The notes under the pieces are model-generated. The model worked only from the letters and a program-made list of their open reading frames with translations. It had not been told where the DNA came from and ran no database searches. Below, in pieces: positions 11,032 to 41,315 of a stretch of 64,000 nt of DNA. Position 1 is the stretch's first letter; every line of letters begins with the position of its first letter. The position numbers were made by a program, and so were the translations under genes. Location: positions 161,930 through 225,929 of the forward strand of contig CABYND010000002.1 of NCBI GenBank assembly GCA_902520195.1, written 5' to 3'. This DNA is from Halieaceae bacterium (GTDB taxonomy: Bacteria; Pseudomonadota; Gammaproteobacteria; Pseudomonadales; Halieaceae).

Positions 11032-11054
11032 AGGTTTGCGCGGCAAGACCGCTT

Positions 11055-11658: not shown

Positions 11659-11689
11659 GTGATGCGACCCACTGTGAACAGGTAACAAG

Positions 11690-12757: not shown

Positions 12758-12758
12758 G

Positions 12759-14171: not shown

Positions 14172-14187
14172 GCGGTGGACTAGAGAA

Positions 14188-14706: not shown

Positions 14707-14750
14707 ACTGGCTCTCCTTCTGTATCAAAGTCGTGGCGGTTGCTTTGAGA

Positions 14751-15436: not shown

Positions 15437-15632
15437 TGGGCAATCGTCTTCTCAACCACACCGACGTGGCTTTGAATGTTTTGCGCTCTTTCAGAGTTTC
15501 GCAATCGACTTACTGCATAATATGCGGGGCGCGAGTATATCGGTTCAACCGACCACCCTCCAGTCAGGAGTAGTGCCCTGTCTGCGGGGGCACGTTACAA
15601 TACGCGGGACAGCTACCCGAGCCCTACACGCC

Positions 15633-17165
15633 GTGTCTACGCCCCGACGCACCACGCTACTTGTCATTCTGGATGGTTTTGGTCATCGCTCTGCCAGCGA
15701 GGACAACGCCATTTTTGCGGCAAAGACACCCACTCTCGATCGCCTGTCGCGTGAGGCACCGCACACGCTGGTGTCAGGATCCGGGCTGGATGTCGGGCTC
15801 CCGGAAGGCCAGATGGGTAATTCCGAAGTGGGCCATATGAGCCTCGGCGCCGGACGCATCGTTTACCAGTCCATCACCCGCATTGATCAAGCGATTGCCG
15901 GCGGCGAATTTGCTGCTAACAGCGCGTATTTGGACGCCATCGATCGCGCCGTGGCGGAAAATAAAGCGGTCCATGTTATGGGCCTCTTGTCCCCCGGCGG
16001 CGTTCACAGCCATGAGGAACAGCTGTTCGCGGCGGTGAGACTGGCCGCGGAACGCGGCGCGAAGAAGCTCTTCTTGCATGCGTTTCTCGACGGCCGTGAT
16101 ACCCCGCCCCGCAGTGCAGCCCCGTCACTGGAGCGCGCTGAAGCAGTCTTTGCCGCACTCGGCACCGGGCGAATTGCGTCTGTCCATGGTCGCTACTGGG
16201 CGATGGATCGCGACAACCGTTGGGAACGGATTGAAAAAAGCTACTCGTTGCTGACAGAGGGCGAGGCAGCACACGATGCGCCCACTGCCCTGAAAGCATT
16301 AGCAGCCGCCTACGCAAGGGACGAGGAAGACGAGTTTGTCGCCCCGACCCGGATTGGTGACCGCGCGGCCTTCGCCGATGGCGACGCAGTACTGTTTATG
16401 AATTTTCGTGCGGACCGCGCCCGGCAGCTCACCCAGGCACTCACCGAATCGAATTTCGACGGCTTTGACCGACGCCATCAGCCCGCCCTGCGACTCGTCA
16501 CGACAACCGAGTACGCAGGGTCTTTGTCGTGTCCGGTGGCTTTTCCAGCCGACACGCTGGAAGACAGCCTCGGCGAGGTGCTTGCGGATGAAGGACTCAC
16601 TCAGCTGCGGATTGCCGAGACCGAGAAGTATGCGCACGTTACCTTTTTCTTCAGCGGCGGTCGCGAAGACACGTTTACGGGCGAAACCCGCACGCTGATC
16701 CCCTCACCCAACGTTGCCACCTATGACTTGCAGCCGGAAATGAGCGCTCATGAGGTCACCGATGCGCTAGTCGCGGCCATCGAATCGGGTGCCTACGACT
16801 TTATCGTCGTCAACTTTGCCAACGGTGACATGGTGGGCCACACCGGTCAGTTTGATGCCGCAGTGGCGGCAGTGGAAACCCTTGATGAGTGCCTGGGCCG
16901 CATCGAAGCGGCACTGCTTGCTGCGGGTGGTGAAGGTTTGATCACCGCGGATCACGGCAATTGTGAGCAGATGCGCGACTACGAAAACGACCAGCCACAC
17001 ACCCAGCACACCACCGAGCCCGTGCCCTTGATTTACCTTGGTCAGGGCAATCGAGACCTGGATCCCGATGGTGGCATCCTCGCCGACATCGCGCCCACGA
17101 TTCTGGCCATGATGTGCCTCGACGTCCCCGCTGCGATGTCGGGACGCAGCCTCCTCAAGCACTGA
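15633..17165 (+). CDS. gpmI: 2,3-bisphosphoglycerate-independent phosphoglycerate mutase
   Basis: [32 protein letters not shown]...[28 protein letters not shown] start proposed. Confidence 0.95.
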
Positions 17166-17176
17166 GCCCGCGCTCA

Positions 17177-18340
17177 GTGGTTCGTGTCTTCACGCTCTGC
17201 CCCGAACCAATTAGCTGCTGTATTGCCTTGTGGGCGGGCCTGACGGCTGCAGCATGGGCACAGTCGCCCGACACCCTCGACCAAACCTCGGAACAAATAG
17301 AAGCGCTGCGCGCAGAGATCACCGTCATTCAAGCACGGCTGGCGTCTCAGGAAAGTGAACGCGACGCGCTGCAAGATGCATTGCGAGAGGCAGAGGTTCG
17401 AATCGGCGAACTGGACCGACAGCTCGGTGCGCTGGGCCAGGAACGTCGCGCGCTGCAGCAGGAACTCAATGCGCTCGATGCGGAAAGCGAACATCTCCGA
17501 CAAGCCCAACGCCAGCGAACCGATACCATCGACACCAGCATTCAACAGCTGTGGCTTTTGCAGCAGGGAGGCGGCTTCCGGGTCTGGTTCGGCGACCAAA
17601 ACCCTCAGGACGTTGCCCGCAACCTCGCCTACTTTCAGACGCTGATCGAGGCGCAGCAGCAAATGATTGCGGACTACGGACTCGGTCTGGAAGCCATCAC
17701 AGAGAACCGTAGCCGCATCGCCCAAGCCGAGACCGCACTGAGAAAACAGGCGAGCGCGACCGAAGCGACAAAAACAACTCTCACAGACCAACGGGCAATG
17801 CGACAAGCGACCCTTGCCCAAATCAGCCAGCAGGTGCAGGACGATCAGCAACGCCTGAACGTGCTGCAACGCGACCAAGCGCGCCTGAACGCCCTGCTCG
17901 GTGAGCTGGAGGCAGTCGCTGCGGCTGCCCCACCCGAACCGCGAATGCCCTTCGCAGACGCTCAGGGTATATTGGTCATGCCATTGGTGGGCACGCTGAA
18001 AAACCGATACGGCGCGCGACGCAATGCGGATATTCGCTGGCGTGGCTGGCTGATCGCAGCGGATCAGGGCGAACCTGTGCGCGCTGTCCACGGCGGCGAC
18101 ATTATATATGCCGACTGGCTTCGCGGTCAGGGCCTGTTGGTGGTGGTGGATCACGGTGAAGGATGGCTATCCCTTTATGCCCAAAACCACAGCCTGCTCC
18201 GAGGCGTGGGCGACCGTGTCAGTGCCGGGGACATCATCGCCAAAGCAGGCGCCAGTGGCGGTAGCGAGACATCCGGCCTGTATTTTGAAATTCGGCACCG
18301 CGGCGAACCGGTCGATCCCGGCGAATGGATACGCCGCTGA
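17177..18340 (+). CDS. envC: Murein hydrolase activator EnvC family (coiled coil plus LytM/M23)
   Basis: Signal-like N-terminus, coiled coil, C-terminal M23-like domain (LKNRYGARRNADIRWRGWLI...LLVVVDHGEGWLSLYAQNHSLL); between gpmI and ctp. Confidence 0.85.
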   Translation: MVRVFTLCPEPISCCIALWAGLTAAAWAQSPDTLDQTSEQIEALRAEITVIQARLASQESERDALQDALREAEVRIGELDRQLGALGQERRALQQELNALDAESEHLRQAQRQRTDTIDTSIQQLWLLQQGGGFRVWFGDQNPQDVARNLAYFQTLIEAQQQMIADYGLGLEAITENRSRIAQAETALRKQASATEATKTTLTDQRAMRQATLAQISQQVQDDQQRLNVLQRDQARLNALLGELEAVAAAAPPEPRMPFADAQGILVMPLVGTLKNRYGARRNADIRWRGWLIAADQGEPVRAVHGGDIIYADWLRGQGLLVVVDHGEGWLSLYAQNHSLLRGVGDRVSAGDIIAKAGASGGSETSGLYFEIRHRGEPVDPGEWIRR

Positions 18341-18408
18341 GACGGAGCCGAATAATCGGGTACCATTACCGGCCCACAGATTTGAGGTCTCACCCTCAGG
18401 ACAAACTC

Positions 18409-19884
18409 ATGGACGTGCGTTTACGCTTTCGCGGCATCGGATTGCTGCTCACACTCTTGATCTGCTCGCCACTGCTGGCGCAGGACCCTGAAAACGAAGA
18501 AAGCCTTACCGCGCCAGGCAACGATCCGCACAGCGGGATGGATATTGCGATAGAAAACGCCGACGATCCCACGACGCAATCGCTGCCCCTCGAAGAACTG
18601 CAGATGTTTGCCGACGTGTTTAATCAGATTCGGCAGGGCTATGTGGAATCAGTCCCCGACAGCGAGTTATTCGAACTCGCGGTTCAGGGCATGCTGTCCG
18701 GTCTCGACCCCCACTCCGTCTTTTTGAGAGAAAAGGCCTACGACTCTTTGCAGGAAACAACGCAAGGCGAGTTCAGCGGTCTCGGTATCGAAATCGGACA
18801 GGATCGCGGCTATATCACCATCATTGCTCCGATTGACGGCTCACCCGCCGAGGCTGCGGGCCTCGAGGCAGGGGACGTCATTCTGAAAATCGATGGTGAA
18901 TCGATTCGTGACCTGCCCGTAAACAAGTCGGTCGAAATGATGCGCGGCCCTACCGGTTCAGAGGTCTTGCTCAGCATCGGTCGACGCGGTGTCGCTGACC
19001 CGTTCGATGTCACCGTCATCCGCGACATCATCAAGGTGCCCAGTGTGAGAAGCCGGGAACTCATGGACGGCTACCTCTGGTTGCGGGCATCCCAGTTCCA
19101 GCGAGATACCGGACTGGAAGCCATCGCCACCTTGGCTAAAGCGCAGGCCGAAGGCCCCTTAAAGGGCGTTGTCATTGACCTGCGCAATAATCCGGGCGGC
19201 GTGCTCGGTGCGAGTGTCGACATGGCGGGTGCTGTGCTGGATGGCGGCTTGGTGGTGTACACCGAAGGTCGTCACCCCCAAGCCGCAGACCAGTATGAAG
19301 CGGCGGCCGGCGACATGCTCAACGGCGCGCCGATCGTAGTGCTGATCAACAGCGGCTCCGCCAGCGCATCGGAGATTGTCGCCGGTGCACTTCAGGATCG
19401 TCGGCGCGCGGTGATCATGGGCACGAGAAGTTTCGGCAAGGGCTCGGTCCAAACAATACTGCCCGTCAATGACACCCGCGCAATCAAACTCACCACTGCG
19501 CTGTACTACACCCCCAATGGCCGTTCGATTCAGGCAGAAGGTATCGTGCCCGATATCGTGGTGGAGCGAGCAGAAGTGACCAGCGTCGAGTCAAATCGCC
19601 GCACCAAAGAAGCCGATCTGCAGGGGAGTTTGAGCGGTGACGGTGGTCCTGTCGATGCTCAATCTGAGAGTGAAGCCCTGACAGAATTGCGCAATTCGGA
19701 TAATCAGCTTTACGAGGCGCTGACTCTGCTGCGCGGCATTAATTTGCTGACTCCCGAGGCACCAGCCAAAGTATCCGAGGAGAAGAACCCGGTTACAGCG
19801 GCGCTCGGTACCCCCTTTATTACCGCCTGTACACAGATCGCCATGCGCGGGTGCTTTATTGAGCCTCAGGGACAGCGACAGTAA
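18409..19884 (+). CDS. S41 family C-terminal processing peptidase
   Basis: PDZ domain and S41 motifs VVIDLRNNPGGVL, INSGSASASEIVAGALQDRRRAVIMGTRSFGKGSVQ. Confidence 0.93.
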   Translation: MDVRLRFRGIGLLLTLLICSPLLAQDPENEESLTAPGNDPHSGMDIAIENADDPTTQSLPLEELQMFADVFNQIRQGYVESVPDSELFELAVQGMLSGLDPHSVFLREKAYDSLQETTQGEFSGLGIEIGQDRGYITIIAPIDGSPAEAAGLEAGDVILKIDGESIRDLPVNKSVEMMRGPTGSEVLLSIGRRGVADPFDVTVIRDIIKVPSVRSRELMDGYLWLRASQFQRDTGLEAIATLAKAQAEGPLKGVVIDLRNNPGGVLGASVDMAGAVLDGGLVVYTEGRHPQAADQYEAAAGDMLNGAPIVVLINSGSASASEIVAGALQDRRRAVIMGTRSFGKGSVQTILPVNDTRAIKLTTALYYTPNGRSIQAEGIVPDIVVERAEVTSVESNRRTKEADLQGSLSGDGGPVDAQSESEALTELRNSDNQLYEALTLLRGINLLTPEAPAKVSEEKNPVTAALGTPFITACTQIAMRGCFIEPQGQRQ

Positions 19885-20003
19885 TCTTTGATTCAAATCT
19901 GCGATCTGCAAATTAGCATCCCTAGCAAGGTATGGCGAACGCTACCGCAACTACCCGCCAGTGATTGGCCCATGCCTAAATTGAGCCCACGGCCTGAGAA
20001 AAA

Positions 20004-20774
20004 TCACAAAAAAATTAATTTGACGATCATCAGGGAAAGGGCCGTAAACAATATAAGTTTTATGAAAGCTCCACCAAAGCTTACAGATGCCTTTGCCCCG
20101 ATCATTCCCCCTAGCGCCATTCCAAACGCGAGGAACAATCCCAATACCCACTCCAGCTCTACGTTGTTAGCGAAAACCAGTAACGCGGCTAATGTGTAGA
20201 CAGCGATAATGAATGTTTTATTCATATTCGCAGACACTAGGTCGAGACCCAATATTTTGTGCATCACGGGCATTATGATGAAGCCAATACCTATTTGGAT
20301 AAACCCGCCCCAAAGTCCCACGAAAACCATCGCTGCATGCCCCGCAAGCAGTCGACTCGGACTGATTTTTAGAGGTATGTCCTCACTGCCCAAAACATCG
20401 CTACTCTTTGTAGGGACCGCCATACTGGCCATAACAGCCAGCATTACTGCGGCAACTATGTAGTCAAACCATTTTCCGTCTAGTCGAGTTCCAACATAGG
20501 CCCCAAAAATCGCCCCCGGTATGGTGGCAATTGCGAGAGTAAGGCTTAGCCGCCAATTACGGTATCCATTCAGAAAAAATGTGCAGGCCGCGGTAACATT
20601 CTGGCTAAGTATCGCGATGCGATTCGTGCCATTGGCTACCGGTCCCGAGCAGTCGAGAAACAGTAGAGAGGGGACTGTGAGTAACGAGCCTCCACCAGCG
20701 ACGACATTAAAAAAACCACCCGCGATACCCACCATGGCGATCAGGACAGCTTGCCATAGATCGATAGAGATCAT
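20004..20774 (-). CDS. TSUP (TauE/SafE) family membrane permease
   Basis: Multi-TM, GGFFNVVAGGGSLLTVPSLLFLDCSGPVANGTNR motif typical of TauE/SafE. Confidence 0.88.
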   Translation of the reverse strand: MISIDLWQAVLIAMVGIAGGFFNVVAGGGSLLTVPSLLFLDCSGPVANGTNRIAILSQNVTAACTFFLNGYRNWRLSLTLAIATIPGAIFGAYVGTRLDGKWFDYIVAAVMLAVMASMAVPTKSSDVLGSEDIPLKISPSRLLAGHAAMVFVGLWGGFIQIGIGFIIMPVMHKILGLDLVSANMNKTFIIAVYTLAALLVFANNVELEWVLGLFLAFGMALGGMIGAKASVSFGGAFIKLILFTALSLMIVKLIFL

Positions 20775-21865
20775 TTTAATTCGGGGGCAACGGTACCTTT
20801 CTCCGGAAAAATATTACGCGGTACCTTTACGTGGATACCCTGTGTCCCGTCTACAACCTGTGTGACGTTAAAGTCAGTGGCAATACTCATTAGCGAGTAA
20901 GCGTCGTGCGCAGACAGGCCGCATTGCTCTGTGAGCAAATGAAGCATATCAATAGAGGCATTTTTCATGGCTATATTTAAGTCCTCATCAAAGCCATGCA
21001 CGATCCAATAATTTGGCGTCTCAAGAAGAGGGCTAGGAAAAGTGAAGTCCTTTCTTAATATGACTTGAAAAAGAACATTCAGCGATGCCTCAATCGCAGT
21101 GCCGCTAATCTCACCATCCCCTTGTGAAATGTGCGGATCTCCAATTGAGAACAGAGCACCATCAACAGCAACTGGATAATACATCACGGCACCAGCGCCT
21201 ATCCGCCAATTATCGATATTTCCGCCATGAAGGCCCGGTGGAATGGTGCTCACTCTGCCTCGGACGTCAGGGGCCACTCCCGCAGTGCCTAAGTGGGGCC
21301 TAACGGGGACTCGCACCCCATCAAGCGCTGACTCTCGATCGCAGTGCGGGCAGTTCGTGATTTTACCGGGTACCGCGTAACTTCCAGTATTATCGTAAGC
21401 ATATATCGCTGAAGCAGTTTGATGATTGTCATCTAATTTATAGATCGTTACTCGCTCAGTTTCATCGAATTCTTTATATAAGTGTCCCCAATTGGCGGCC
21501 ACATTAGACCCGTAATTGAGTCTAGGTAGCATCTGAAAATAACGAACTTCCAAGATATCTCCCGGCTTTGCATCGTTCAGATAGATCGGCCCAGTCATTA
21601 AATGAACGCCCGGATGGCGATCGGACTCAGGGATATCGCGGAATATCTTTTCAATTCGGGGGTCCATGAGCAGCTCTGGGTCATCTCCAGCGTGATGGGT
21701 AACAGCTTCCGCCCAAATTAAATCCCCGCTTTCAGCAATCATTACCGGTGGGATAGTTGGATCAAAATAACCCCAGTGACAGTTTTCGGGTGTCGCTGGC
21801 AGATGCCTGAGCGTCTGCGGTGGGACGTCGAGTCGTGGTTTTCCATCCATGCTCATAAAGCCCAT
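20771..21865 (-). CDS. Acetamidase/formamidase family protein
   Basis: GDILEVRYFQMLPR, PHLGTAGVAPDVRGRVSTIPPGLHGGNIDNWRIGAGAVMYYPVAVDGALFSIGDPHISQGDGEISGTAIE: FmdA_AmdA signature. Confidence 0.92.
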   Translation of the reverse strand: MGFMSMDGKPRLDVPPQTLRHLPATPENCHWGYFDPTIPPVMIAESGDLIWAEAVTHHAGDDPELLMDPRIEKIFRDIPESDRHPGVHLMTGPIYLNDAKPGDILEVRYFQMLPRLNYGSNVAANWGHLYKEFDETERVTIYKLDDNHQTASAIYAYDNTGSYAVPGKITNCPHCDRESALDGVRVPVRPHLGTAGVAPDVRGRVSTIPPGLHGGNIDNWRIGAGAVMYYPVAVDGALFSIGDPHISQGDGEISGTAIEASLNVLFQVILRKDFTFPSPLLETPNYWIVHGFDEDLNIAMKNASIDMLHLLTEQCGLSAHDAYSLMSIATDFNVTQVVDGTQGIHVKVPRNIFPEKGTVAPELK

Positions 21866-22424
21866 AAATTTTCACCTTTAGCCATAAAGTTCATTGAAGA
21901 ATATCTGGACCTCTACGTAATTTAGGTCCCGCCAAGCTTGGGCCAAGTATTCATAGATTCAGCTAAAACAACAGGTTGCACCTACTCCCCGCATTTAACT
22001 GTATATCGATCACTGCACACTTTTAGTGCTTTGCACATTCCGGGTGCGGTCAATGCACCACCCCCCGAGCTGATTGCTCTGTTAACGTTGGCAGTGATTG
22101 GTAGCCCTGAGACCAATGTCTCGATTCATTAATCTGGTAAGAGTCAGTTAAATTTGCCAATAGTGACGTCCGCGGGGCTGCCCTCTGAGCTTGGTCCCTG
22201 ACCTAAAGGTCTGCTCTGAAATTTAAAGGCCTGCTGGAATGGTTGTTAAGTTTTTTGTGTTAAAGGATTGCTGACCTCAATTGCCACTTGCGAAAAAGAA
22301 GTGATTGCCGCCAGACTTCTATCCCTCGATCGGAAAAGAAGCCGAGCGTTTTGTCAGCAAACACGCTTCTGCTGGGACGAAGACAATACTCAGCCTCCCA
22401 AGACTTTAGAGTCAGCCCGGCGAC

Positions 22425-24737
22425 TCAGAATTCGTAGCGTAAAGAACCTATTACTTGACGCGGTGGGATGTATTCCCTGCTGGTCGACCAAATTCCGAAT
22501 GGATTATTAAAAATATTGTTAACACCGTCCTCGTCAGTTGCATTTGAGATTGTGAGCCCAAAAGCGATGTTTTCCGCGCTATTGGGGACAAATTGGAAGC
22601 TCAGGTTCAACACATCGTAGCTCGGAACTTTATCGAAATCTGGATTGTTGAAGATGCGAGCATACATCTCACCGCGATGCACATATTCAATTCTGCTCGT
22701 TAAGTCTCCCATGCCGCCCAAGCTAAGCGTGTTAGTAACGCCGATTCGAGCAAGCAGATCTGGCATTTTTGGGGGCTCGTTGCCCTTTAATGAGGTATTG
22801 GACAGACCAAACTTAAGTCCAATTCCTCCATCCGTAAAATAGCCGACGCCGGGGCCAAGAAACTCTCTAAAATCAATGATGTCCATCGCTGTGTCGTCAC
22901 TTTCGACTTCTCCGTCTTGCCAAGAGAGCATTCCGTCTAATCTCCAAGACTCTGAAATTTGAAAGCTAAACTCAGTTTCGATACCTTTCTCTTCCAATTC
23001 AGAGATGGTGTTGGTTCCTCCTCCGTATGGGATTGGATCCTCAAAAATGTACTGTAGGTGCTCGTGGTCGTACAGAAATGCAGTTATGTTCAGCTTAGCT
23101 CTGCCCCCCAAGAAGGTGTTACGTGACCCTATCTCAAATGCGGTCACCTCCTCAGGCTCGTAGCCTACTGGTAATAGGGCCGCCCCTCCGGTAATCGCTG
23201 CAGGATTAGTTCCACCGTTTTTCCAACCAGTCGAAGCTAAAACGTAAATCATGTTGCTGTCTGATAAATCGTACTCTGCGCCCAGTTTCCAAGTTACCGC
23301 GTCGTCATTAGTTTCCCTTGAGAATGGCCCAAAAATGCCGAAGAACTGTGCACCAGCGTCTGTTTGCTCCTCGTCTTGCCAACGCAAGCCTGCTGTTATA
23401 GCTAGCCGATCAGTCGCCCTGAAGGTGCCCTGTCCGTAAACCGCGATATCTTTGCGGGACACCGTTCGCTCTTCTGTAAAATTCAGCACTGAGCGAAATG
23501 GTGGAAGTGTGGCAAGGCTGGGATTTTCAACAGCGGAAGCGGATGCTGAGTATGGTGCTCCGCCAGTAGCCTCTACAAAGTTGTTGTAGTTGTCGTGATC
23601 CAGATAGTAAGCACCAAGGTTCCAATCCACATCGGAGCCTAGGTAACTCAAAACCAATTCTTGGCTAGTGGCCTCTGAGTTGTTGTCCCAAAAAGGAAGA
23701 ACATCCCAGTTGTCAGCGCGACCAAAACCTAGCCTATCAATAGATATAGTGCTTTCCGTGAGTCTATCACCGTCGGTTGTCTGCTCCTTCTCAAGTTCCT
23801 GGTATCCAGTCAGAGACTTAAATGTAAGCCTGTCAGAAATGGCCCATTCGATGATCATGGAGTAGCTTTCATTGTCGAGGTTGAAAATGCCGGGATAATC
23901 CTGTGTGAGTTCGCGAGGATCGGAATTTGGGTCATCGACGTTTTTCTGGGCTGCCGCGTTCTGGTCTGATTGGTGAACGAACCCCTGCAAAAAGATTGAC
24001 AGTGAGTCAGTAGGCTCCCACAGCAATGCCAGCCGAGAGCTTGTCGAGTCGGCGTCATCTAACTCATAGCCGTCCAGAGCCCCTCCCTCAATTTCTGCAA
24101 AACCATCGTGACGGTGGCGCTGGACTGAGGCCCTTAATGCTGCGTTTTCTCCGATCGGGATGTTTACCGCACCGCGAGCGTTGACAGTGCTGTAGTTTCC
24201 TAAGCCAATGTCGACATATCCGCTGGTTTCATTAAGAACTGGCCTTTTGGAGACGAGGTTAATTGCACCGCCGGTGGTTCCTTGACCGAATTCGGTGCCT
24301 TGTGGCCCCCGGAAAACTTCAATTCGCTCTACCTCACCTAGATCAAGGCCCATAGACAGTGGATTAGCTAAGTAGACGCCATCTACATAAGAGAGCACCG
24401 ATGGCTGTGACGCCAGATTTTGAGCCGTTTCCCACCCAATACCGCGGATAGTTACTACTCTGCCAGCGCCGTCGTTTTTGGCGACTACGAGCCCTGGGAC
24501 GTAACCATTAAAATTATCAAGCCTCATGATATTTGACGCGTCAAAATCCGACCCTGAAGTAACTGAGACAGCAATTGCCGCATCCTGCAATTTGACTTCG
24601 GTTTTCTTAGCGGTAACGGTCACCTCTTCTAGGACGAGGTCTTGGGCCACTACATTTCCACCAATTGTGAGCGCAACCAAAGCTGCGGCGAGGGGACGCA
24701 GTGCGAGACCATCCGCGCGAAAAGTCATAAATTTCAT
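22425..24737 (-). CDS. TonB-dependent outer membrane receptor
   Basis: Signal peptide, VLEEVTVTAKK, plug domain RIEVFRGPQGTEFGQGTTGGAINLVSKRP, C-terminal aromatic LRYEF. Confidence 0.93.
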   Translation of the reverse strand: MKFMTFRADGLALRPLAAALVALTIGGNVVAQDLVLEEVTVTAKKTEVKLQDAAIAVSVTSGSDFDASNIMRLDNFNGYVPGLVVAKNDGAGRVVTIRGIGWETAQNLASQPSVLSYVDGVYLANPLSMGLDLGEVERIEVFRGPQGTEFGQGTTGGAINLVSKRPVLNETSGYVDIGLGNYSTVNARGAVNIPIGENAALRASVQRHRHDGFAEIEGGALDGYELDDADSTSSRLALLWEPTDSLSIFLQGFVHQSDQNAAAQKNVDDPNSDPRELTQDYPGIFNLDNESYSMIIEWAISDRLTFKSLTGYQELEKEQTTDGDRLTESTISIDRLGFGRADNWDVLPFWDNNSEATSQELVLSYLGSDVDWNLGAYYLDHDNYNNFVEATGGAPYSASASAVENPSLATLPPFRSVLNFTEERTVSRKDIAVYGQGTFRATDRLAITAGLRWQDEEQTDAGAQFFGIFGPFSRETNDDAVTWKLGAEYDLSDSNMIYVLASTGWKNGGTNPAAITGGAALLPVGYEPEEVTAFEIGSRNTFLGGRAKLNITAFLYDHEHLQYIFEDPIPYGGGTNTISELEEKGIETEFSFQISESWRLDGMLSWQDGEVESDDTAMDIIDFREFLGPGVGYFTDGGIGLKFGLSNTSLKGNEPPKMPDLLARIGVTNTLSLGGMGDLTSRIEYVHRGEMYARIFNNPDFDKVPSYDVLNLSFQFVPNSAENIAFGLTISNATDEDGVNNIFNNPFGIWSTSREYIPPRQVIGSLRYEF

Positions 24738-25194
24738 GTTAAAGCGCCTCTGCAACAATTGAGTAATCTTAGCATCCAACGCAGGAACAACAAGGTTTTG
24801 CACGCAAGCGCACGATACGTTGACATTTTATGAATAAACTAAATTAGTATTCGCGAGTGAAAGAGAGTGGAAAGGTAATCTCAACTTATTATTTATGTTG
24901 AAAAGGAAGCATAGATGTAATCCAGCCCCGTAATTAACGAGCTTGGCTACCGTCCTCAGCTGTTTTTCGTGTCACTCGTATTCTTAGGGTCTGGTGGCCC
25001 CGTGGCAAATTGAGCTGGAGATTCATCGACCCCGTTTATTTTTGCCAAGTTTCCAATCTTTATGTGCAAGAAACGAGTGTTTGATCTGTTAGATTGATGC
25101 TTTTGCAACTAAGGTCGCGTGCACTGTGGGCAAAAGTTTTTGAACCTGTGGAAAGTATGGCCGCTATGCTTAGATGCTGTCCGAGGAGTGAGGC

Positions 25195-26379
25195 ATGAGA
25201 CCTTCAATTTTGACCGACGAATTTTTTGACTGTCTGGAAAGTTCGGTGCTTCCACTTGAGGACGCCGAAACATTGCCGCCTGAATGCTACACGGACCGAG
25301 ATTTTTACGAGCTCGAGAAGCAGGCATTGTTCAATCATGAGTGGTTATGTGTCGGCCGAGAATCAGACATCCCAGACGCGGGCGATTTTTTTACCACACA
25401 CATTGTGGACGAGCCGATTATCGTCGTCAGAAACAAGAGCGGGAACATTAAGGCGTTATCTGCAGTGTGTCAGCACCGAGCCATGCTGGTTGCTGAGGGT
25501 AAAGGCAATAAGCGAGCGTTTCGATGCCCATATCATCATTGGACATATTCGTTGGATGGGGACCTCTTAAAGGGGCCAGCGATGGAAGCGACCTGCAATT
25601 TCTCCGAAGCTGACTATGGCCTTCCGAGCTTCCAAGTAGAGTTGTGGCTGGGCTTTATTTTTATAAATTTCGACACAGAAGCTGCCGCGCTCAGTCCAAG
25701 GCTCACGGCAGTTGAAGAGACTATAGCTAACTATGATCTAGCGTCAGCTTCGAGCATACCGCCGGAGACTGTAACTTTTACTTGGAATTGGAAAGTTCAG
25801 TTTGAAAATAACAACGACGGTTACCACGCCAACAGGCTTCACCAAGGCAAGAACCATGATTTTTGCCCCAGTCATCTATGCTCATTTCCCAAGATGCCGC
25901 CCGGCACTGCTGGCTACACCCGAGTGAATGGTCTCACCCACAAAGATGCTGCCTACAACCCGACTCAGAGGGCGCTTCACCCCTTGTTTCCAAAACTAAC
26001 GGATGAGGACAGACATAAGTTTTACTTCGCTAATGTGCCGCCGACGCTGTCTTTGGTACTGACGCCCGAAATGGTTTTTTATTTAATCGTGCGTGCCACT
26101 GGTCCTGAAGTGCATGAGATGGATACTGGCTTGTTGTTTGCCCCCGGAGCCACAGAGCATCCAGAGTTTGAAAGTCGGTTGGAGCAATCTTGGCTCACAG
26201 GGTCAGAGATCATGGCCCAAGATCAACACGTTGATAAACTAGTGCAAATCGGGCTGCGCTCGAGACATGCTGCAAGAGGCAGATACTCCTGGCAGGAGGG
26301 TGCCCAACAACAGCTAAATAGTTGGCTGGTACCTAGATACAGAGCCGCTTGGCATCGTATGAAGAAGGCAGCAACTTGA
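25195..26379 (+). CDS. Rieske [2Fe-2S] aromatic ring-hydroxylating oxygenase, alpha subunit
   Basis: Rieske CQHRAM...CPYHHW; mononuclear iron motif NNDGYHANRLH. Confidence 0.92.
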   Translation: MRPSILTDEFFDCLESSVLPLEDAETLPPECYTDRDFYELEKQALFNHEWLCVGRESDIPDAGDFFTTHIVDEPIIVVRNKSGNIKALSAVCQHRAMLVAEGKGNKRAFRCPYHHWTYSLDGDLLKGPAMEATCNFSEADYGLPSFQVELWLGFIFINFDTEAAALSPRLTAVEETIANYDLASASSIPPETVTFTWNWKVQFENNNDGYHANRLHQGKNHDFCPSHLCSFPKMPPGTAGYTRVNGLTHKDAAYNPTQRALHPLFPKLTDEDRHKFYFANVPPTLSLVLTPEMVFYLIVRATGPEVHEMDTGLLFAPGATEHPEFESRLEQSWLTGSEIMAQDQHVDKLVQIGLRSRHAARGRYSWQEGAQQQLNSWLVPRYRAAWHRMKKAAT

Positions 26380-26397
26380 CCCCTAACGGGTTCATCG

Positions 26398-27210
26398 TTG
26401 GGTCTACCAATGGCTGAGAACGGATTAACGCCAGTTGCTTTTTTCGGGCATGGATCGCCTACAACTATTATGGATGATCCCGCCACCATGAGTGCTTGGT
26501 CAACGCTTGCGGGAATTATTGGTAGGCCCAAGGCCGTCATATGTGTCTCTGCTCATTGGTGCACTGAGGGAGTGAAAGTCACTGCAATGGAGGCTCCGCG
26601 GACGATACATGATTTCGGCAGGGGGCTACCCTCCCAGTTATTCGAAGTGCAATATCCAGCGCCCGGGAGTGCTGAACTAGCGATACGGATTCAGCAAACT
26701 CTGCATCCAATTCCTGTGGAACTGGACCATACATGGGGCTTAGATCATGCTGCTTGGACGGTTCTGTCTGTGATCTATCCGCAGGCAGACGTTCCCGTCG
26801 TGCAACTCAGCATGGACGCGTCAAAACCGATTTCTTGGCACTATGAATTAGGGCGCGCTTTACGGCCGCTGCGCGAGGAAGGCTTCCTCATCTTGGGTTC
26901 AGGTAACGTAGTGCATACATTGGCTCAAATGGAGTGGGATATCAATGCGAGACCTCACGATTGGGCTCAAAGATTTAATGACTTAGTGATAGATGTGGTG
27001 GAGACCAATACTCCGGAACGTTTGTTCAATCATCAAGCGTTGGGACGCGATGCTGCCCTGTCGATCCCACCCCCTGATCTTGGTCATTATTGGCCCCTAT
27101 TTTATGTATTAGGAGCTAGGCACCCCGATGACAAATTAACGATGAATCCCAAGCACGTGCAGTACAAGTCCCTGAGCATGTTGAGTTTTGTTCTTGACTC
27201 AGCCGCGTAA
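26398..27210 (+). CDS. DODA-type (LigB-fold) extradiol dioxygenase
   Basis: PVAFFGHGSPTTIMDD, CVSAHWCTEGVKVTAMEAPRTIHDFGR, DHTWGLDHAAWTVL, GSGNVVHTL; start may be ATG 26410. Confidence 0.92.
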   Translation: MGLPMAENGLTPVAFFGHGSPTTIMDDPATMSAWSTLAGIIGRPKAVICVSAHWCTEGVKVTAMEAPRTIHDFGRGLPSQLFEVQYPAPGSAELAIRIQQTLHPIPVELDHTWGLDHAAWTVLSVIYPQADVPVVQLSMDASKPISWHYELGRALRPLREEGFLILGSGNVVHTLAQMEWDINARPHDWAQRFNDLVIDVVETNTPERLFNHQALGRDAALSIPPPDLGHYWPLFYVLGARHPDDKLTMNPKHVQYKSLSMLSFVLDSAA

Positions 27211-27349
27211 CAGCTGCCTTCGTTGGTATGCGAGGTGATGTAGCCTGGGTATTGGTTTGGTGTTCGAGATCACAAGCAAGCGAGAAGTGGTCTTTAGTCA
27301 GCGAGAAATTAAGATTTACACCTAGATAGATAAGACAGGAGAGAAAGCC

Positions 27350-27841
27350 ATGCCCTACCCAAACACCCTGATTTTTGTTGATTTGTCATCTGATGACCCG
27401 GCCGCAGCGGGGGAGTTTTATGCTGAAGTCTTTGGTTGGGAAAACGATCCCAGGCCCTTGGGGACTTTTCACAGGATGGTGCCAGGTCAAAACTTTCTGA
27501 ACCCTGATGGTAGTCAAAGCGAAATCGGCAATCTTCATTTAGGAATACACAATTCGCAAAATGTGCGGCCACACCCCAATCCTGACGGAGTGGAGCCAAG
27601 AATGCCGAGTACGGATGGACGGAAGCCAAGGGTATTTATTTTAGTAAGTCCCGATGATTCCGCTGATAGAATCATAGAGACCGCAGAGCGATTAGGGGCC
27701 GAGGTCCTGTGGCGCAACCATTATTGGAGTGAATTTAATGGCTTCAATGACGCTTTTCGCGATCCATGGGGTAATGAAATCGTCTTGTGGACCAAGGGAG
27801 GCGAGAACCCAGAGATTCCTGATCATTTCACCGACGAGTGA
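27350..27841 (+). CDS. VOC family protein
   Basis: FVDLSSDDPAAAGEFYAEVFGWE...FRDPWGNEIVLW. Confidence 0.85.
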   Translation: MPYPNTLIFVDLSSDDPAAAGEFYAEVFGWENDPRPLGTFHRMVPGQNFLNPDGSQSEIGNLHLGIHNSQNVRPHPNPDGVEPRMPSTDGRKPRVFILVSPDDSADRIIETAERLGAEVLWRNHYWSEFNGFNDAFRDPWGNEIVLWTKGGENPEIPDHFTDE

Positions 27842-27967
27842 AGCCTCGCTATTTTTTGGCCAAGCAGCAATGGAAAGGCGAGAGAGTTGATAGCTCGTTT
27901 AGCCCTTTTCCTTCTAAAACAGACTTTGCGCACGCCGCAGTAACTAGGGCATAAAAAAGGGGATGTT

Positions 27968-28471
27968 ATGAATTCTGAAGCACAGCCAGCCGAGACAGAG
28001 GTTAACCACGCTTTTCACGTCTCCAGACAGACCTGGACTCACATAGCTCTTCATTGCAAAAACATAGACGAGATGATCTCTTGGTACGAGCAGCACACTC
28101 ATTTCTCCCTGCTTTTCAAAGAGGAAGATCCCTTCGGGGCGGGAGCGTGGATGGGCGATAAATCTCAGGTCGAGCAGCCATTTGTGTTGGTCTTTCAACA
28201 ATTCGCAGAGGGTAATGACCCTTTTTCACCCGCGGAGCATCATCCACTGGGTCCTTTTGCTCACATTGGAATTGAAGTCCCTGCTAAAGAGGATGTAGAC
28301 GATATCGCAGCGAAAGCAGAGAAATCTGGGTCTCTGATTATGGGGCCCGTCAGAATGCCAAAACGCATTGGTTATATTTGTTTTGTGCGTGACCCAGAAG
28401 GAAATGTAGTGGAGTTCTCTTTTGACCAAGGCGTATACACAAAAGCTCGAGAAGCCTGGGCGGGAGAGTGA
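27968..28471 (+). CDS. VOC family protein
   Basis: WTHIALHCKNIDEMISWYEQHTHF...FAHIGIEVP...GYICFVRDPEGNVVEFSFDQ. Confidence 0.85.
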   Translation: MNSEAQPAETEVNHAFHVSRQTWTHIALHCKNIDEMISWYEQHTHFSLLFKEEDPFGAGAWMGDKSQVEQPFVLVFQQFAEGNDPFSPAEHHPLGPFAHIGIEVPAKEDVDDIAAKAEKSGSLIMGPVRMPKRIGYICFVRDPEGNVVEFSFDQGVYTKAREAWAGE

Positions 28472-28604
28472 TCCAGAAACTGCGGATCCGCTTGCACATG
28501 ACAGTCGAGTCTGAAGAACACCTGTCGCCGGGAGTCAGAGGCTTGCTTGAGTTATTCGCATGCTTGGTCGCATCCAGCAAACAAGTTTTCAACAGGAGAG
28601 AATA

Positions 28605-29636
28605 GTGAAAGCGTTGATTTACGAGGAACATGGAGCTGATGTGCTCAAGTTCCGGGATGTGCCAGATCCTAGCCCCGATAGCCGTGATGTCATTATTGAG
28701 GTCGCTGCGACGACTGTGAATCACTTGGATGTGACACAAAGGAATGGTTGGTTCACCATGCCGGGCTTTACGTTACCCCACATTTCCGGGATGGATGTAG
28801 CTGGGACCGTTGTGGAAATGGGGTCCAAAGTGAAGTCAGTCGAGAAGGGCGAGAGGGTAATCGTCGACCCTTCGCTTACTAACGTACCCCAAGATTCGCA
28901 ATTGAGCGGGAGAGGGGATTTATATGGTGAATTGGGAGTTATCGGCGCAAATGCTGACGGTGGCTACGCGGAGCTGTGCGTCGTGCCCGAAACTCATGTT
29001 TATAGAATCCCTGAACACATGTCTTGGCATCAGGCCGCGATGTTCCCAACTGTTTGGATGACAGCCCACCATGCGTTATTCGATGTTGCTCAACTGAAAG
29101 CCGGGGAAGTTGTGATGATACACGCTGCTGGAAGCGGCGTTTCAATGGCTGGAATCCAGCTTGCCAAACGGGTTGGGGCAATAGTACTTGCGACTGCTGG
29201 CAGTCAAACTAAGTGTGATAAGGCGTTGGAGTTGGGTGCAAACCATACTTGCATTAATCGGGAACATGACATTGCTCAGTGGGCTCGGGAAGTAACCCAC
29301 GGTTCCGGCGTAGATGTCGTTTTTGACCATGTTGGCGAGGCACTATGGTCACAGTCTATGTTCTCACTAGCACCGCGCGGGAGGTTGGTGAATTGCGGAG
29401 GCACATCAGGGAACGCGCCGGTAATCCCTAATTTAGGTTACATGTACCACATGGGTTTGAGGATTTTGGGATCAGATCCTTATCGATACGAGGAATTTCA
29501 GCCTGCTTGGTCGACCTACTGTACCGGAGAGTTTGAGTCTGTTGCGGACAGCATTTTTCCCTTATCTGAGGGTGCTGCGGCGCAAAACAAGCTACTCCAG
29601 GGTGACTTTTTTGGAAAAATAATATTGGAGCCCTGA
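28605..29636 (+). CDS. Zinc-type alcohol dehydrogenase / quinone oxidoreductase (MDR family)
   Basis: GTG start after AGGAGAG; MKALIYEEHGADVLKFRDVPDP, HISGMDVAGTVVEMG, VMIHAAGSGVSMAGIQLAKRVGA. Confidence 0.9.
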   Translation: MKALIYEEHGADVLKFRDVPDPSPDSRDVIIEVAATTVNHLDVTQRNGWFTMPGFTLPHISGMDVAGTVVEMGSKVKSVEKGERVIVDPSLTNVPQDSQLSGRGDLYGELGVIGANADGGYAELCVVPETHVYRIPEHMSWHQAAMFPTVWMTAHHALFDVAQLKAGEVVMIHAAGSGVSMAGIQLAKRVGAIVLATAGSQTKCDKALELGANHTCINREHDIAQWAREVTHGSGVDVVFDHVGEALWSQSMFSLAPRGRLVNCGGTSGNAPVIPNLGYMYHMGLRILGSDPYRYEEFQPAWSTYCTGEFESVADSIFPLSEGAAAQNKLLQGDFFGKIILEP

Positions 29637-29642
29637 GGGCCC

Positions 29643-30713
29643 ATGAGTGCCGATTCTCCTTATCCTGAGTTAAAGAAAACGCATACCATGGCGCACGCCG
29701 GGCGTCCTTGGAGGGATTACAAGCCTCCACCGTCCGGTCCAGTGTGGTCGGTAATTAATGCGGGTAATACTTACTGGATGCTGATCGCAGCCATAGACCT
29801 AGGCGTTTTCGACGCTATGGAGCCCGGGGTAGGTACCAGTGGTTCCGATTTGGCGGTACAACTCGATGTGTCCCAGCATGGCCTGCAACATTTGTTGGAT
29901 TGTATGGTCACGCTAGGTTTCCTCGACCAAATTGATAGCTGCTACGAGTTGACAGAGACTTCTGAGCGCTACTTACGCTCCGACGGCCCGGCATCCATGG
30001 TCTCCCTGGTCAAAATATCCCCGGGGCCGCTAGATAACTGGATAGGTCTATCGGAGACCATTAGGTCCGGAAAGGTCAAAAACCCGATTGACGACGACAT
30101 TGTCGGTTTTTACCGGCCTTTGGTTTCCGCGACCTTTCCAACTCAATACAGGGTGGCTACACGATTAGGCTCCATCATGGGTTGGGCCCGGCATTCGGGC
30201 CTGAGGGTGTTGGACCTTGGGGCTGGCGCAGGACCATGGTCTGCGGCTCTGCTGGAGCATGCTAAAGACTCCATGGCTGTAATAAACGACTTCTCATCAA
30301 TCCTCGAATTAGCCGAGTCGTCGATGAAGTCAAAAGCTTTGTGGCAACAATGCGAATTCCGCGCCGGGAGTTTTCATGAGATCCACATCGAAGAGAGTTG
30401 TTATGACATGGTGTTTTTGGGACACATCTGCCGGACTGAGGGCGAAAAAAATACTAAGGATTTGGTGAGGCGTGCTGTGGCTGGGTTGAAGCCTGGCGGT
30501 AAAATTGTGGTAGCCGACTATTTCTCTGACAATGATAAGAGGGTTAATGCGTTTGGAGTAATGATGGGGCTGACGATGTTGGCGAACACGAGAAATGGCG
30601 GGGCTGTTACTTTTGAAGAGATGTATCGGATCCTTGCGGCGAATCCTATTGAGAGGATCAGAGTGTTGGAGCCAATTGGAGCGAACATGGTTTTCGTAGG
30701 CGATAAAACTTGA
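29643..30713 (+). CDS. SAM-dependent methyltransferase (O-methyltransferase family 2-like, N-terminal dimerisation domain)
   Basis: LGVFDAMEPG... winged-helix N-terminus; VLDLGAGAGPWSAALLEH; GLKPGGKIVVADYF. Confidence 0.85.
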   Translation: MSADSPYPELKKTHTMAHAGRPWRDYKPPPSGPVWSVINAGNTYWMLIAAIDLGVFDAMEPGVGTSGSDLAVQLDVSQHGLQHLLDCMVTLGFLDQIDSCYELTETSERYLRSDGPASMVSLVKISPGPLDNWIGLSETIRSGKVKNPIDDDIVGFYRPLVSATFPTQYRVATRLGSIMGWARHSGLRVLDLGAGAGPWSAALLEHAKDSMAVINDFSSILELAESSMKSKALWQQCEFRAGSFHEIHIEESCYDMVFLGHICRTEGEKNTKDLVRRAVAGLKPGGKIVVADYFSDNDKRVNAFGVMMGLTMLANTRNGGAVTFEEMYRILAANPIERIRVLEPIGANMVFVGDKT

Positions 30714-30729
30714 AAAGGTAGATTTTTTT

Positions 30730-32127
30730 ATGGTTACAGAAAATCAAGTTGAGATCGATAAGCTAATAGACGCGTGGTATGTCGTTACTATGAATGAAAC
30801 CAGAGACATTGTTCATCGTGGCTCTGTGGCTGTTCATAAAGACAAAATCGTCGACATTGGTAAGACGCTAGATCTTGAAAAACGTTATCAGGCCAAGGAG
30901 AGGCTTGGTGGAGATCGCTTCGTACTTACTCCAGGTTTGGTAAACACACATATCCACATTACCGGAGAGCCGATTACTCGAGGTTATGTGCCTGACGACA
31001 CTCCTTTTGAGGAAAATGTTTTCCTTTGGCTGTGTACGCTCTATTCAGTGCAAACTGCTGAGGAGGAGGTCGCCTCTGCAAAGTTAGCAGCTGTTGAGAT
31101 GCTGAGGAGTGGCACTACATGTTTTCTTGAGGCAGGTACTATTTATCATCTAGATGAGGTGTTTTCCGAGCTGTCTAAAGTAGGCATCCGCGGGCGCTTA
31201 GGAAAGTGGATCTGGGATTTGCCGCCAGAACCAGTGATTTACAGGCAGTCTACCGATGTGGCAATCGAGAATTTGAACCGGCAGTTGGAGCGCTATAACA
31301 AACCCTCTGAGCTGCTCTCCGCGTGGAGCACGCTTGTGGGACATACAACCTGCAGTGACCCTTTGTGGAGAGAGGCCAAGGCGCTGGCTATCAAACATGA
31401 CGTTGGAATGAGCTTTCACATGTCTCCTGCCCAGATCGATCCGGATGGTTTTGTTGCAGAGTTCGGCCATCGACCAATAGTGCACTTGGCCGAGATTGGT
31501 GTCTTAGATGATAGATGTGCACTTACTCATATGGTTCGGGTCAACGACGCGGAAGTTGATATCCTCGCTGAATCAGGAGCTAGTGTCGCACATTGTCCTA
31601 CTACGGCTCTAAAGGTGGCTTACGGTGTTACTCAGGTCGGGAAATTCCCCGAGATGGTGCAAAAAGGTGTGAATGTCTCGCTGGGAACGGATGGTAACAA
31701 TGCTTCGAATTATTCTGACCTAATGCGCGCATCTTATTTGGCCGCTGGTATTTTTAAGGATGCAAGGGAAGACCCGCAAATGTTTCCTGCAGAAAAAGCT
31801 TTCGAAATGGCCACGATAGACGGCGCCAAAACTCTGCTGATGGATCAGGAAATCGGCAGTTTAGAGATTGGTAAGAAAGCTGATTTGGTGTTGCATGATA
31901 CCGACAGACCGGAGTGGCGACCATTACTCAATGTCATGAATCAGTTGGTATGGTCAGCTGACGGGCGAGGTGTTCACACAGTCTTAGTGGATGGACAGAC
32001 GGTCGTTGAGGATGGAAGGTGTCTCACTGTGGATGAGGAAAAGCTTTGGTCGGATGTGCAACAAATGGGAGAAGCAATAACCGGCAGATCGGGCTTGCCA
32101 GATAAAGCGAAGTTCCCAACGCTGTGA
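30730..32127 (+). CDS. Amidohydrolase superfamily protein (TrzN/AtzB/SsnA-like deaminase/chlorohydrolase group)
   Basis: LTPGLVNTHIHITGEPITRGY (HxH metal motif), SVAHCPTTALKVAYGV, VSLGTDGNNASNYSDLMR. Confidence 0.88.
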   Translation: MVTENQVEIDKLIDAWYVVTMNETRDIVHRGSVAVHKDKIVDIGKTLDLEKRYQAKERLGGDRFVLTPGLVNTHIHITGEPITRGYVPDDTPFEENVFLWLCTLYSVQTAEEEVASAKLAAVEMLRSGTTCFLEAGTIYHLDEVFSELSKVGIRGRLGKWIWDLPPEPVIYRQSTDVAIENLNRQLERYNKPSELLSAWSTLVGHTTCSDPLWREAKALAIKHDVGMSFHMSPAQIDPDGFVAEFGHRPIVHLAEIGVLDDRCALTHMVRVNDAEVDILAESGASVAHCPTTALKVAYGVTQVGKFPEMVQKGVNVSLGTDGNNASNYSDLMRASYLAAGIFKDAREDPQMFPAEKAFEMATIDGAKTLLMDQEIGSLEIGKKADLVLHDTDRPEWRPLLNVMNQLVWSADGRGVHTVLVDGQTVVEDGRCLTVDEEKLWSDVQQMGEAITGRSGLPDKAKFPTL

Positions 32128-32762
32128 AGAACAGCCTAAGTTCTCTATGCTCGCTTTCGCGTATTTAGTGATTTGGCAGATAGGGTGGTGTGGCAAGCAA
32201 GCGTACAGACGATGTTGCCCTCCCAGAGAGCGGCCTCGTACAGACAAACCTTGGGGACCCCGTTGCAACGCGAATTCTTTATCCTCAGTGCTTTAGTGAA
32301 TAATTGCTTCGGCACCAAGCGCCTTCTCGAAATCGCGGTTCGTTGCACTAGTCGTGATGCAGATCTTGGTGCAAAGTGCGTTGCCGTTGGAATTGCAACG
32401 CCGCCAACATCGCCAGCGCTGGTCTGGATAAAAGCCTAGGCCTGCTCGGAGATGGCTGATTTCGTTCGCGGCCTGGCGACGTAATTAACAGTGAGTCTCC
32501 CGATCCGTCCTTGAGTTTAAAATTGTTACGAAGCCGAACCTTTTTTTGGTTTTGACGGCAGTTAGCGGCATTCTTGAAGGGCGCCGTAATGGCATGATGG
32601 TATTTGAGCATCGAAGACCGAGTGCCGTTAGAGATACCGTCAAATCTGTCGTTTTGTGATGAGTATGCGTGAACATACACGGTAGGCCGTAAAGGAACAG
32701 TATTCAGATCAATGAGTGTCTTAAGATCGTCTTGGAAGGTTTTGAGAATCACAAGTTGTAGC

Positions 32763-37047: not shown

Positions 37048-38139
37048 ACAATGAACGCCAAATCCTGGGTCATCACTGTTTCAATGTGCGGCTTTGTTAC
37101 GGCTGCTTTGGCCGGGATCAAGTTTGTACAGATTTCGCAGGCCATAGCGTTTATGGAGAGCTTCCCGCCCGCCTACGAGACTGTCACCGTTGCCGGCGCC
37201 GAGGCTGACCAGTGGCAGCCCACTCGGCTTCTGAGCGGCACCGTGCAGTCACCCGAGCACCTTGTCATCTCAGCAGAGACACCCGGCCGGATTGTGGAGC
37301 TCCCGTATCAAAGCGGCAACACCGTCCCTGCTGGTGCCGAGGTGCTAGTGCTATTCGATGACGACATCGAAGCCCAACAAGACGCGCTACGAGCTGACCT
37401 AAACCTCGTTGAAACCCAGTTATCACGAAATCTCACGCTGGAGGCGGACTCATTGGTTTCACAGGACCAGCTGGACATCCTCAGGGCTCGTAATCTGTCG
37501 CTGACCGCGCAGATAGCGGCACTTGAGGCGCGCCTGAGTCGCATGACAGTGCGTGCGCCGTTTGCCGGCAAGATGGGTATTTACACGCAACGTGTTGGCG
37601 ATTTAATGCGCGTCGGTGAGGTGCTCACGACCCTAACGGGTCTGACAGCCATGCGATGGATTGACTTTAAGGTCCCGCAAGGCCTCGCCAGCATTGTGGT
37701 CGGGGATACCGTCGAGATCCGTGACGTTAACGGCTTCTTTTCCGAGCCAGCCAGAGTCATCGCCGTCTCCGCTGCGTTCAGTGACGAAACTCGGACCTAC
37801 GAGGTCCGCGCTGAACTCAAGGCGCCCGCGCTCAAGCATGGCTCACTTGTGCAAGTGGCAGTGGCTACTGGCCCCCTTGAGAACTTAATGTCGGTGCCAA
37901 AACGCAGCGTGCGCTGGGACGTCCAAGGTCCACACGTATTTGTCGTTGAAGAAGCCGAGGCAAATGCCTTCCTTCCACACCGCGCCAGCATCCGGCGAGT
38001 AGAAGTTCGTGGAGAGAGCCGTGACAAGCTATTCATCACTGGAGAGATGGCCCCTGGCGAGCTCGTCGCCAATCGTGGGGCGTTTAAGCTGCAGGACAAT
38101 CTCCTTGTAGCAGTTCATGCCCTCAACACAGACCAATGA
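37042..38139 (+). CDS. RND efflux periplasmic adaptor (MFP/HlyD family)
   Basis: SGTVQSPEHLVISAETPGRIVELPYQSGNTVPAGAEVLVLFDDD...MTVRAPFAGKMGIYTQRVGDLMRVGEVL; start may be ATG 37051. Confidence 0.92.
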   Translation: MQTMNAKSWVITVSMCGFVTAALAGIKFVQISQAIAFMESFPPAYETVTVAGAEADQWQPTRLLSGTVQSPEHLVISAETPGRIVELPYQSGNTVPAGAEVLVLFDDDIEAQQDALRADLNLVETQLSRNLTLEADSLVSQDQLDILRARNLSLTAQIAALEARLSRMTVRAPFAGKMGIYTQRVGDLMRVGEVLTTLTGLTAMRWIDFKVPQGLASIVVGDTVEIRDVNGFFSEPARVIAVSAAFSDETRTYEVRAELKAPALKHGSLVQVAVATGPLENLMSVPKRSVRWDVQGPHVFVVEEAEANAFLPHRASIRRVEVRGESRDKLFITGEMAPGELVANRGAFKLQDNLLVAVHALNTDQ

Positions 38140-41237: not shown

Positions 41238-41315
41238 CATCAGGCCTCGCGTTACTTGACGCGTGGAGGGTGCGCGGGTTTAATACGCGGCCTTCACGCT
41301 GTGCGCCCCTCTTTT

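Follow-up and report, generated by a model that had tools for sequence, protein, structure and literature searches.

The ten-gene island and described routes of flavin catabolism

It was only in 2025 that genes for the conversion of the flavin ring to central metabolites were identified, and all clusters known to the authors came from soil bacteria (PMC12746152). In that work, published in November 2025, the lumichrome (lum) pathway was reconstituted from Nocardioides simplex ATCC 6946, whereby the pyrimidine ring is opened, a hydrolase acts on the urea group, an imino hydrolase of about 52 kDa follows, a Rieske oxygenase yields a catechol, and extradiol cleavage, a cupin hydratase and a retro-aldolase complete the route. 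Riboflavin degradation by Pseudomonas RF, with quinoxalinedione and oxamide as intermediates, has been studied from 1958 onward (summarized in PMC12746152), and the rca set comprises the riboflavin lyase RcaE (PDB 5w48), a flavin reductase, a ribokinase, and a riboflavin kinase. Here, we analyzed a 64,000-nt stretch from a Halieaceae bacterium (the window, within which all island coordinates are counted) that contains an island of ten intact genes between ctp and hisF. As a catabolic cluster, the island was acquired horizontally, and we see about an even chance, judged from its sequence, that its substrate is an N-heterocycle of the alloxazine/quinoxaline type, the most likely compound being lumichrome, which forms the ring system of riboflavin, or something closely derived from it. 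The substrate, the order of the steps and every individual catalytic assignment are what we infer from gene content and context.

An earlier sequence-only reading had described ten genes in two divergent units within AT-richer DNA between ctp and hisF, and this description holds. All ten reading frames are open, and their positions agree exactly or to within a few codons with those stated in that reading. The genes span 20004-32127 (Table 1), and Pfam backs the family assignment of each of them. The GC content of the island is 0.476-0.510 (about 49%) compared to 0.54-0.62 in the adjoining blocks (flanks about 59%), and the GC content at third codon positions (GC3) is 0.46-0.57 compared to 0.60-0.71. 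The two units diverge from an intergenic gap at 24739-25194, if the TonB receptor gene begins at the internal ATG (24738). The ctp-hisF junction that the same reading had suggested comparing in relatives was looked up in 24 congener loci fetched via hisF: ctp lies beside hisF in 21 of them, and in 17 of these 21, the ctp and hisF alignments are less than 200 bp apart, compared to 12.9 kb here. None of the 139 further family genomes that were searched has a close relative of the Rieske protein (E<=1e-90), nor does any of 368 other genomes drawn from the class (E<=1e-120). At the island ends neither mobility genes nor flanking repeats were found, and an Rfam scan yielded no riboswitch in the window or in five related loci.

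Table 1. The island and its genes, with positions in the window and the basis of each assignment.
Feature	Position	Strand	Basis
Inserted island between ctp and hisF	19885..32762	.	GC step, GC3 step, empty site in 21 congener loci
TSUP/TauE-SafE family transporter	20004..20774	-	PF01925 2e-39
FmdA/AmdA-family amide hydrolase (FmdA)	20771..21865	-	PF03069 5e-33
TonB-dependent outer-membrane receptor, start = internal ATG	22425..24738	-	PF00593/PF07715
Single-subunit Rieske oxygenase, core gene	25195..26379	+	PF00355/PF00848
DODA/YgiD-type (LigB) extradiol dioxygenase (DODA)	26398..27210	+	PF02900 8e-21
Glyoxalase-like protein (VOC1), core gene	27350..27841	+	PF18029
VOC2, first gene of the block common with Streptomyces	27968..28471	+	PF00903; 44% to L098:22360-22800
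MDR/quinone-oxidoreductase-type dehydrogenase (ADH)	28560..29636	+	PF00107/PF08240; 74% in L011, 44% in L098
O-methyltransferase-family protein (OMT)	29643..30713	+	PF08100/PF00891; 63% in L011, 36% in L098
TRZ/ATZ-type amidohydrolase (AHyd)	30730..32127	+	PF01979 1.6e-44

The metal-binding and cluster motifs are intact in the Rieske, DODA and amidohydrolase proteins, those of the Rieske protein being CQH-x-CPYH and DGYHANRLH. As had been pointed out before, neither a ferredoxin nor a reductase gene adjoins the Rieske gene in the island. The DODA protein passes the NCBIfam model for 4,5-DOPA extradiol dioxygenases (PRK10628; 291.6 bits against a cut-off of 233), a score from which this activity is predicted. 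FmdA scores 65.7 bits against the formamidase model NF045496, which is below the curated cut-off of 500, and by its sequence it is a Pfam family member and not a formamidase equivalog. Likewise, AHyd reaches the cut-off of none of the known deaminase equivalogs (5'-deoxyadenosine, 8-oxoguanine, TRZ/ATZ), the best score being 275.9 bits against 522.

In comparison to the lum pathway, putative counterparts of its steps are present in the island and in a further contig of the same assembly (C3) taken together. As in lum, Rieske and extradiol dioxygenase genes stand in one cluster, being adjacent in the island. With regard to the hydrolases LumH, LumI and LumM, AHyd shows 60% identity to a protein of a lum-like Streptomyces cluster (locus L098, see below), and HyuA/HyuB and an isochorismatase, as further candidates, are encoded on C3. 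The Rieske protein is of the single-subunit and not of the alpha/beta type, and the ring-cleaving enzyme is a LigB-type DODA and not a 46-kDa enzyme; both are of other subfamilies than those in L098. Further differences from lum are the occurrence in Proteobacteria, HyuA/HyuB or RutA-like enzymes, the additional FmdA, OMT and ADH, and the presumed TonB import. We did not file the island as a lum member, as it lacks several of the enzymes that define lum and has Rieske and extradiol enzymes of different subfamilies. The sequence-only reading had called the pathway unassigned; this is not wholly so, since in its logic it agrees with the lumichrome pathway (PMC12746152), although no paper describing the gene set, nor any description of the combination as an operon, was found in the literature.

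A recurrent core with exchangeable partner enzymes

Relatives of the Rieske protein with 57-81% identity were found in 80 retrieved loci, the best one (81%) in a Porticoccaceae metagenome-assembled genome (MAG). The other carriers include alphaproteobacterial MAGs, Caulobacter, Phenylobacterium, Novosphingobium, Sphingomonas, Hyphomonas, Parvibaculum, acetic acid bacteria, Paraburkholderia, Variovorax, Alteromonas and Thalassolituus; cultured bacteria such as Caulobacter sp. Root655, Kozakia baliensis NBRC 16680 and Novosphingobium capsulatum are among them. By tblastn mapping and clustering of predicted neighbors, a core of Rieske, DODA, FmdA and VOC1 genes was found across Alpha-, Beta- and Gammaproteobacteria, in which FmdA relatives (66-76% identity) adjoin the Rieske gene in many genomes and VOC1 relatives are 60-85% identical. 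No tblastn match was obtained for the TSUP gene in the related loci. The genes are hence conserved together elsewhere, as the sequence-only reading had proposed to check, yet its seven-gene plus-strand unit is a composite, in which Rieske-DODA-VOC1 come from the widespread core and VOC2-ADH-OMT-AHyd form a second module. In many clusters, among them L009, L053 and L069, an AraC regulator gene near the Rieske gene is followed by another FmdA-type gene that has diverged from the first one (~35-39% identity). Several Novosphingobium clusters (L040, L064, L067, L084) carry two different amidohydrolase copies ~14-15 kb apart, which fall on separate branches of the tree.

Two kinds of clusters surround this core. 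The large "type B" clusters have in addition a RutA-like luciferase-type monooxygenase, a flavin reductase, an isochorismatase, an M20-like enzyme, two TauD dioxygenases, an SDR, MFS transporters, AraC and, in some cases, a VanB-type reductase, whereas "type A" carries instead HyuA/HyuB, a cupin, an HpaI-type aldolase, IclR, VOC2 and often an amidohydrolase. Where present, the VanB-type reductases are plausible electron donors; there is none near the Rieske gene in the window. The only close solved relative of the M20-like enzyme is 5-nitroanthranilate aminohydrolase, and the isochorismatase falls near biuret amidohydrolase/RutB. An isochorismatase-type hydrolase accompanies the RutA-like monooxygenase in 39 of the 40 cluster loci that have the latter, a pairing that is also found in the Rut system (RutA/RutB). 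Unlike in Rut, the RutA model score (252.6) stays below the curated cut-off of 498.3, the partners are Rieske and ring-cleavage genes, and the RutA-like gene is absent from the window. The RutA-like proteins of the related clusters are only ~25-30% identical to RcaE. These companions (RutA-like monooxygenase, isochorismatase, HyuA/HyuB, M20 enzyme) would fit the opening of a pyrimidine ring and a deamination. The general proposal made from the sequence before, namely that a heterocyclic aromatic compound containing N is taken up and degraded with cleavage of the ring and release of an amide, is supported.

Co-occurrence was counted for 60 loci with a length of 17 kb or more, the flanks of which end at 10 kb. 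Four pairs of genes were never found together: HyuA (10 loci) and the RutA-like gene (40 loci), AHyd (10) and the M20-like aminohydrolase (30), TauD1 (37) and TauD3 (12), as well as DODA (42) and a second LigB type (10). The loci are not independent, many being from Caulobacteraceae, so that this mutual exclusion is suggestive and does not constitute a test; it fits the idea that unrelated enzymes serve equal steps. The interchangeable steps would be the opening of a cyclic amide, the removal of a ureido group and the hydrolysis of an amino/imino group. A HyuB search (E<=1e-200) over 392 genomes of the order gave no match in another genome, and the cluster is thus patchy there and not ancestral.

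The constancy of these partners also bears on the question of whether a benzenoid is degraded. The DODA model score, the presence of an OMT and the conversion of DOPA to betalamic acid by a related DODA of an acetic acid bacterium (PMC12186922, a betalain/DOPA study that contains no gene-cluster information) would suit a methoxylated or DOPA-like compound, with the Rieske protein as demethylase or hydroxylase next to a DOPA dioxygenase and the other genes as unrelated passengers. Over dozens of genomes, however, the constant partners are amide and ureide hydrolases and not genes of ferulate/vanillate or tyrosine pathways, which makes benzenoid catabolism very improbable. The term "methoxylated" in the sequence-only reading was based only on the OMT and the Rieske protein, and as nothing that was found points to O-demethylation, it is not supported. 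Trigonelline, pyridine, creatinine, mimosine and indole-3-acetic acid pathways were dropped as well, as they fail to explain the constant gene set.

A four-gene block shared with a Streptomyces plasmid

A plasmid search with the island AHyd gave as best match (60%) a protein encoded at L098:20875-22245, whereby L098 denotes 48 kb around this match on plasmid NZ_CP108854 of Streptomyces sp. NBC_00841. L098 carries RcaE (697 bits, E=1e-208 to PDB 5w48) alongside genes for a flavin reductase, a riboflavin kinase and a ribokinase, and with these a complete rca set. The ribokinase gene, for which the matches fall in two frames, may be disrupted. As seen by reading the sequence, a LacI-type regulator and a transposase separate the rca set from a lumichrome-type cluster, which begins with TauD3 (62% identity to the one from Sandaracinobacter), a Dabb-VOC extradiol protein, Rieske beta and alpha subunits and a reductase. 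There follow IclR, a cupin, HpaI, a 387-aa amidohydrolase, FAH and the block ADH-OMT-AHyd-VOC2, and at the end a ferredoxin, a Bmp-type ABC transporter, a second AHyd, aldehyde and alcohol dehydrogenases and a 777-aa P450-reductase-ferredoxin fusion. Calculated masses of 46.6, 40.6, and 83.5 kDa for L098 proteins are near those published for LumE (46), LumW (40), and LumU (81) (PMC12746152), and the composition of L098 beside the rca set is close to that of the published lum cluster. The rca set lies within about 35 kb of the lumichrome-type cluster (L098:430-36004 with L126:46045-46921, NZ_CP108854); according to PMC12746152, no strain with such a colocalization of RcaE and lumichrome genes had been identified.

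The Streptomyces ADH, OMT, AHyd, and VOC2 genes are adjacent, their products show 44, 36, 60, and 44% identity to those of the island, and their order is that of the island except that VOC2 comes last. In the MAG behind locus L011, VOC2-ADH-OMT-AHyd (AHyd 79%) stand in the exact island order and are followed by an AraC gene and an orthologue of the TonB receptor (73%); elsewhere in this genome there is also an FmdA (69% identity). In a tree of the amidohydrolases from these loci, the island and Streptomyces proteins group apart from the other proteobacterial ones (98/100). The position of the four-gene block beside a complete rca set provides a sequence-level tie to flavins. Ribokinase-like genes recur in 25 proteobacterial loci (one above the curated cut-off), which, together with the rca/lum neighborhood of the block, points to a ribose-bearing, flavin-like source. 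Two further plasmids were set aside: that of Rhodococcus (L099) has a related cupin in an ordinary hydroxyphenylpropionate-type context, and that of Maritalea (L125) has rca genes only.

The same neighborhood speaks against a pterin or folate as substrate, which would be degraded by deamination of the pterin and opening of the pyrimidinone, followed by catabolism of the pyrazine or p-aminobenzoate part. Such a course could draw on the scores of AHyd near 8-oxoguanine and 5'-deoxyadenosine deaminases, on a lumazine ring that would suit the RutA-like protein with isochorismatase or HyuAB, on the aryl-amide hydrolases among M20 enzymes, and on the known degradation of folate with a pterin deaminase in a Variovorax (PMC9513972). 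It offers, however, no obvious benzenoid catechol for the conserved pair of Rieske and extradiol enzymes, and the closest distant relative of the four-gene block stands beside a riboflavin lyase and not beside folate genes, so that we regard this explanation as rather improbable.

Proposed course of degradation and genomic context

The source assembly (2.1 Mb, 57 contigs, ~69% complete) contains further genes of the "type A" repertoire on C3. Positions 1-20000 of this contig encode relatives of L011 proteins (HyuA 59%, HyuB 71%, cupin 65%, HpaI 37%, and IclR 35% identity), paralogues of island proteins (DODA 74%, VOC1 58%), a divergent Rieske protein (34%), and an AMP-ligase, an isochorismatase, a TonB receptor and mhpDFE-like proteins. 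The cupin and HpaI genes, which are absent from the window, are adjacent at C3:11265-12549, as are their relatives in L098. The next 20 kb harbor genes for a molybdenum hydroxylase, M20 enzymes, an amidase and a carbazole-type Rieske protein. C3:1-40000 (L095, L096) is a second, partly paralogous N-heterocycle region of the genome. The island looks like a reduced L011 cluster, and the ring-opening and end genes could come from C3, a division of labor that we infer from the gene content.

If lumichrome or a close derivative is the substrate, it would be imported via the TonB receptor, and its pyrimidinedione ring would be opened by HyuA/HyuB from C3, or by the RutA-like monooxygenase in other bacteria. 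The isochorismatase-type hydrolase of C3 would take off the ureido group, and AHyd might hydrolyze the amino/imino group in a LumM-like step, after which oxidation/decarboxylation would yield a quinoxalinedione. The Rieske protein, as a putative quinoxalinedione-type dioxygenase, would convert the latter to a catechol and set free an oxamide-type fragment, for which FmdA is the candidate hydrolase. The catechol would be cleaved by DODA, and hydration by the cupin hydratase and aldol cleavage by the HpaI-type aldolase, both from C3, would lead to central metabolites. The quinoxalinedione and oxamide intermediates of Pseudomonas RF would explain the set of Rieske, DODA and FmdA.

Several points weigh against lumichrome degradation by the island. 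Its Rieske and DODA proteins are not orthologues of the Streptomyces Rieske protein (~30%, partial) or of the VOC-type extradiol enzyme there, the putative orthology of AHyd and LumM rests on size and context, and OMT, ADH, VOC1, VOC2 and TSUP are not accounted for by the proposed course. A P450 fusion of the LumU type and a thiamine diphosphate-dependent decarboxylase (LumKL) are not among the ten genes of the island, whereby the genome as a whole was not searched for them. The island shares with rca the presumed flavin degradation, and ribokinase-like genes recur in the proteobacterial clusters, but none of the rca genes is present in the island; for RcaE, the genome yielded only ~27% matches (the best one in C3), and neither a clear ribokinase nor a TauD1 orthologue was found in it. 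The lack of the latter two would fit the use of lumichrome rather than riboflavin, or an incomplete assembly. In addition, the island and C3 are linked only by the binning of a 69%-complete assembly.

It might also be that another fused N-heterocycle, such as an indole/oxindole-, quinoxaline- or quinazoline-type natural product, is degraded and that the likeness to flavin clusters reflects the reuse of modules. Lactams of several kinds are substrates of HyuA/HyuB families, genes for a molybdenum hydroxylase, for carbazole-type Rieske proteins and for a lower pathway of the mhpDFE kind are found in the C3 region, and the published lum description (PMC12746152) has no counterpart for OMT and ADH. 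In view of the ribokinase genes in many clusters and the rca/lum neighborhood, which point to a ribose-bearing flavin-like source, we consider this unlikely, though worth keeping in mind.

Returning to flavins, the cluster family is widespread and undescribed, and the flavin-ring chemistry that it probably carries out has so far been assigned to genes only in soil actinobacteria. Tentatively, and at somewhat less than an even chance, the Rieske-DODA-FmdA family may represent a widespread proteobacterial route by which the flavin ring is degraded completely and whose chemistry would be that of the lost route of Pseudomonas RF. Such a route would be put together from modules that can replace one another (RutA-like or HyuAB ring opening, two unrelated deaminases, two TauD types, two LigB types), and it would move as islands into bacteria that live in marine, freshwater or soil habitats or are associated with fermentation. 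All life uses flavins, which plants, fungi and microbes produce. If the cluster family does degrade them, genes would be supplied for a route known biochemically from 1958, the strain of which is lost, and flavin-ring turnover would extend to Proteobacteria, with acetic acid bacteria and marine groups among them. Furthermore, a conserved context of DODA/YgiD-type dioxygenases would gain a function, and one could trace in metagenomes how lumichrome, a signal in plants and in quorum sensing, is turned over.

Apart from the island, the window has a second AT-rich block at 38000-50000 (GC 0.47-0.52) with an RND efflux pump, a nuclease-like protein, several unassigned proteins and, at 41316-41391, a tRNA-Phe. 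The genome gives 17 Rieske-type matches in total, one of which is another Rieske oxygenase alpha subunit gene that is followed by a gene for a SnoaL-like small protein in DNA of normal GC content (window 49739-51536).

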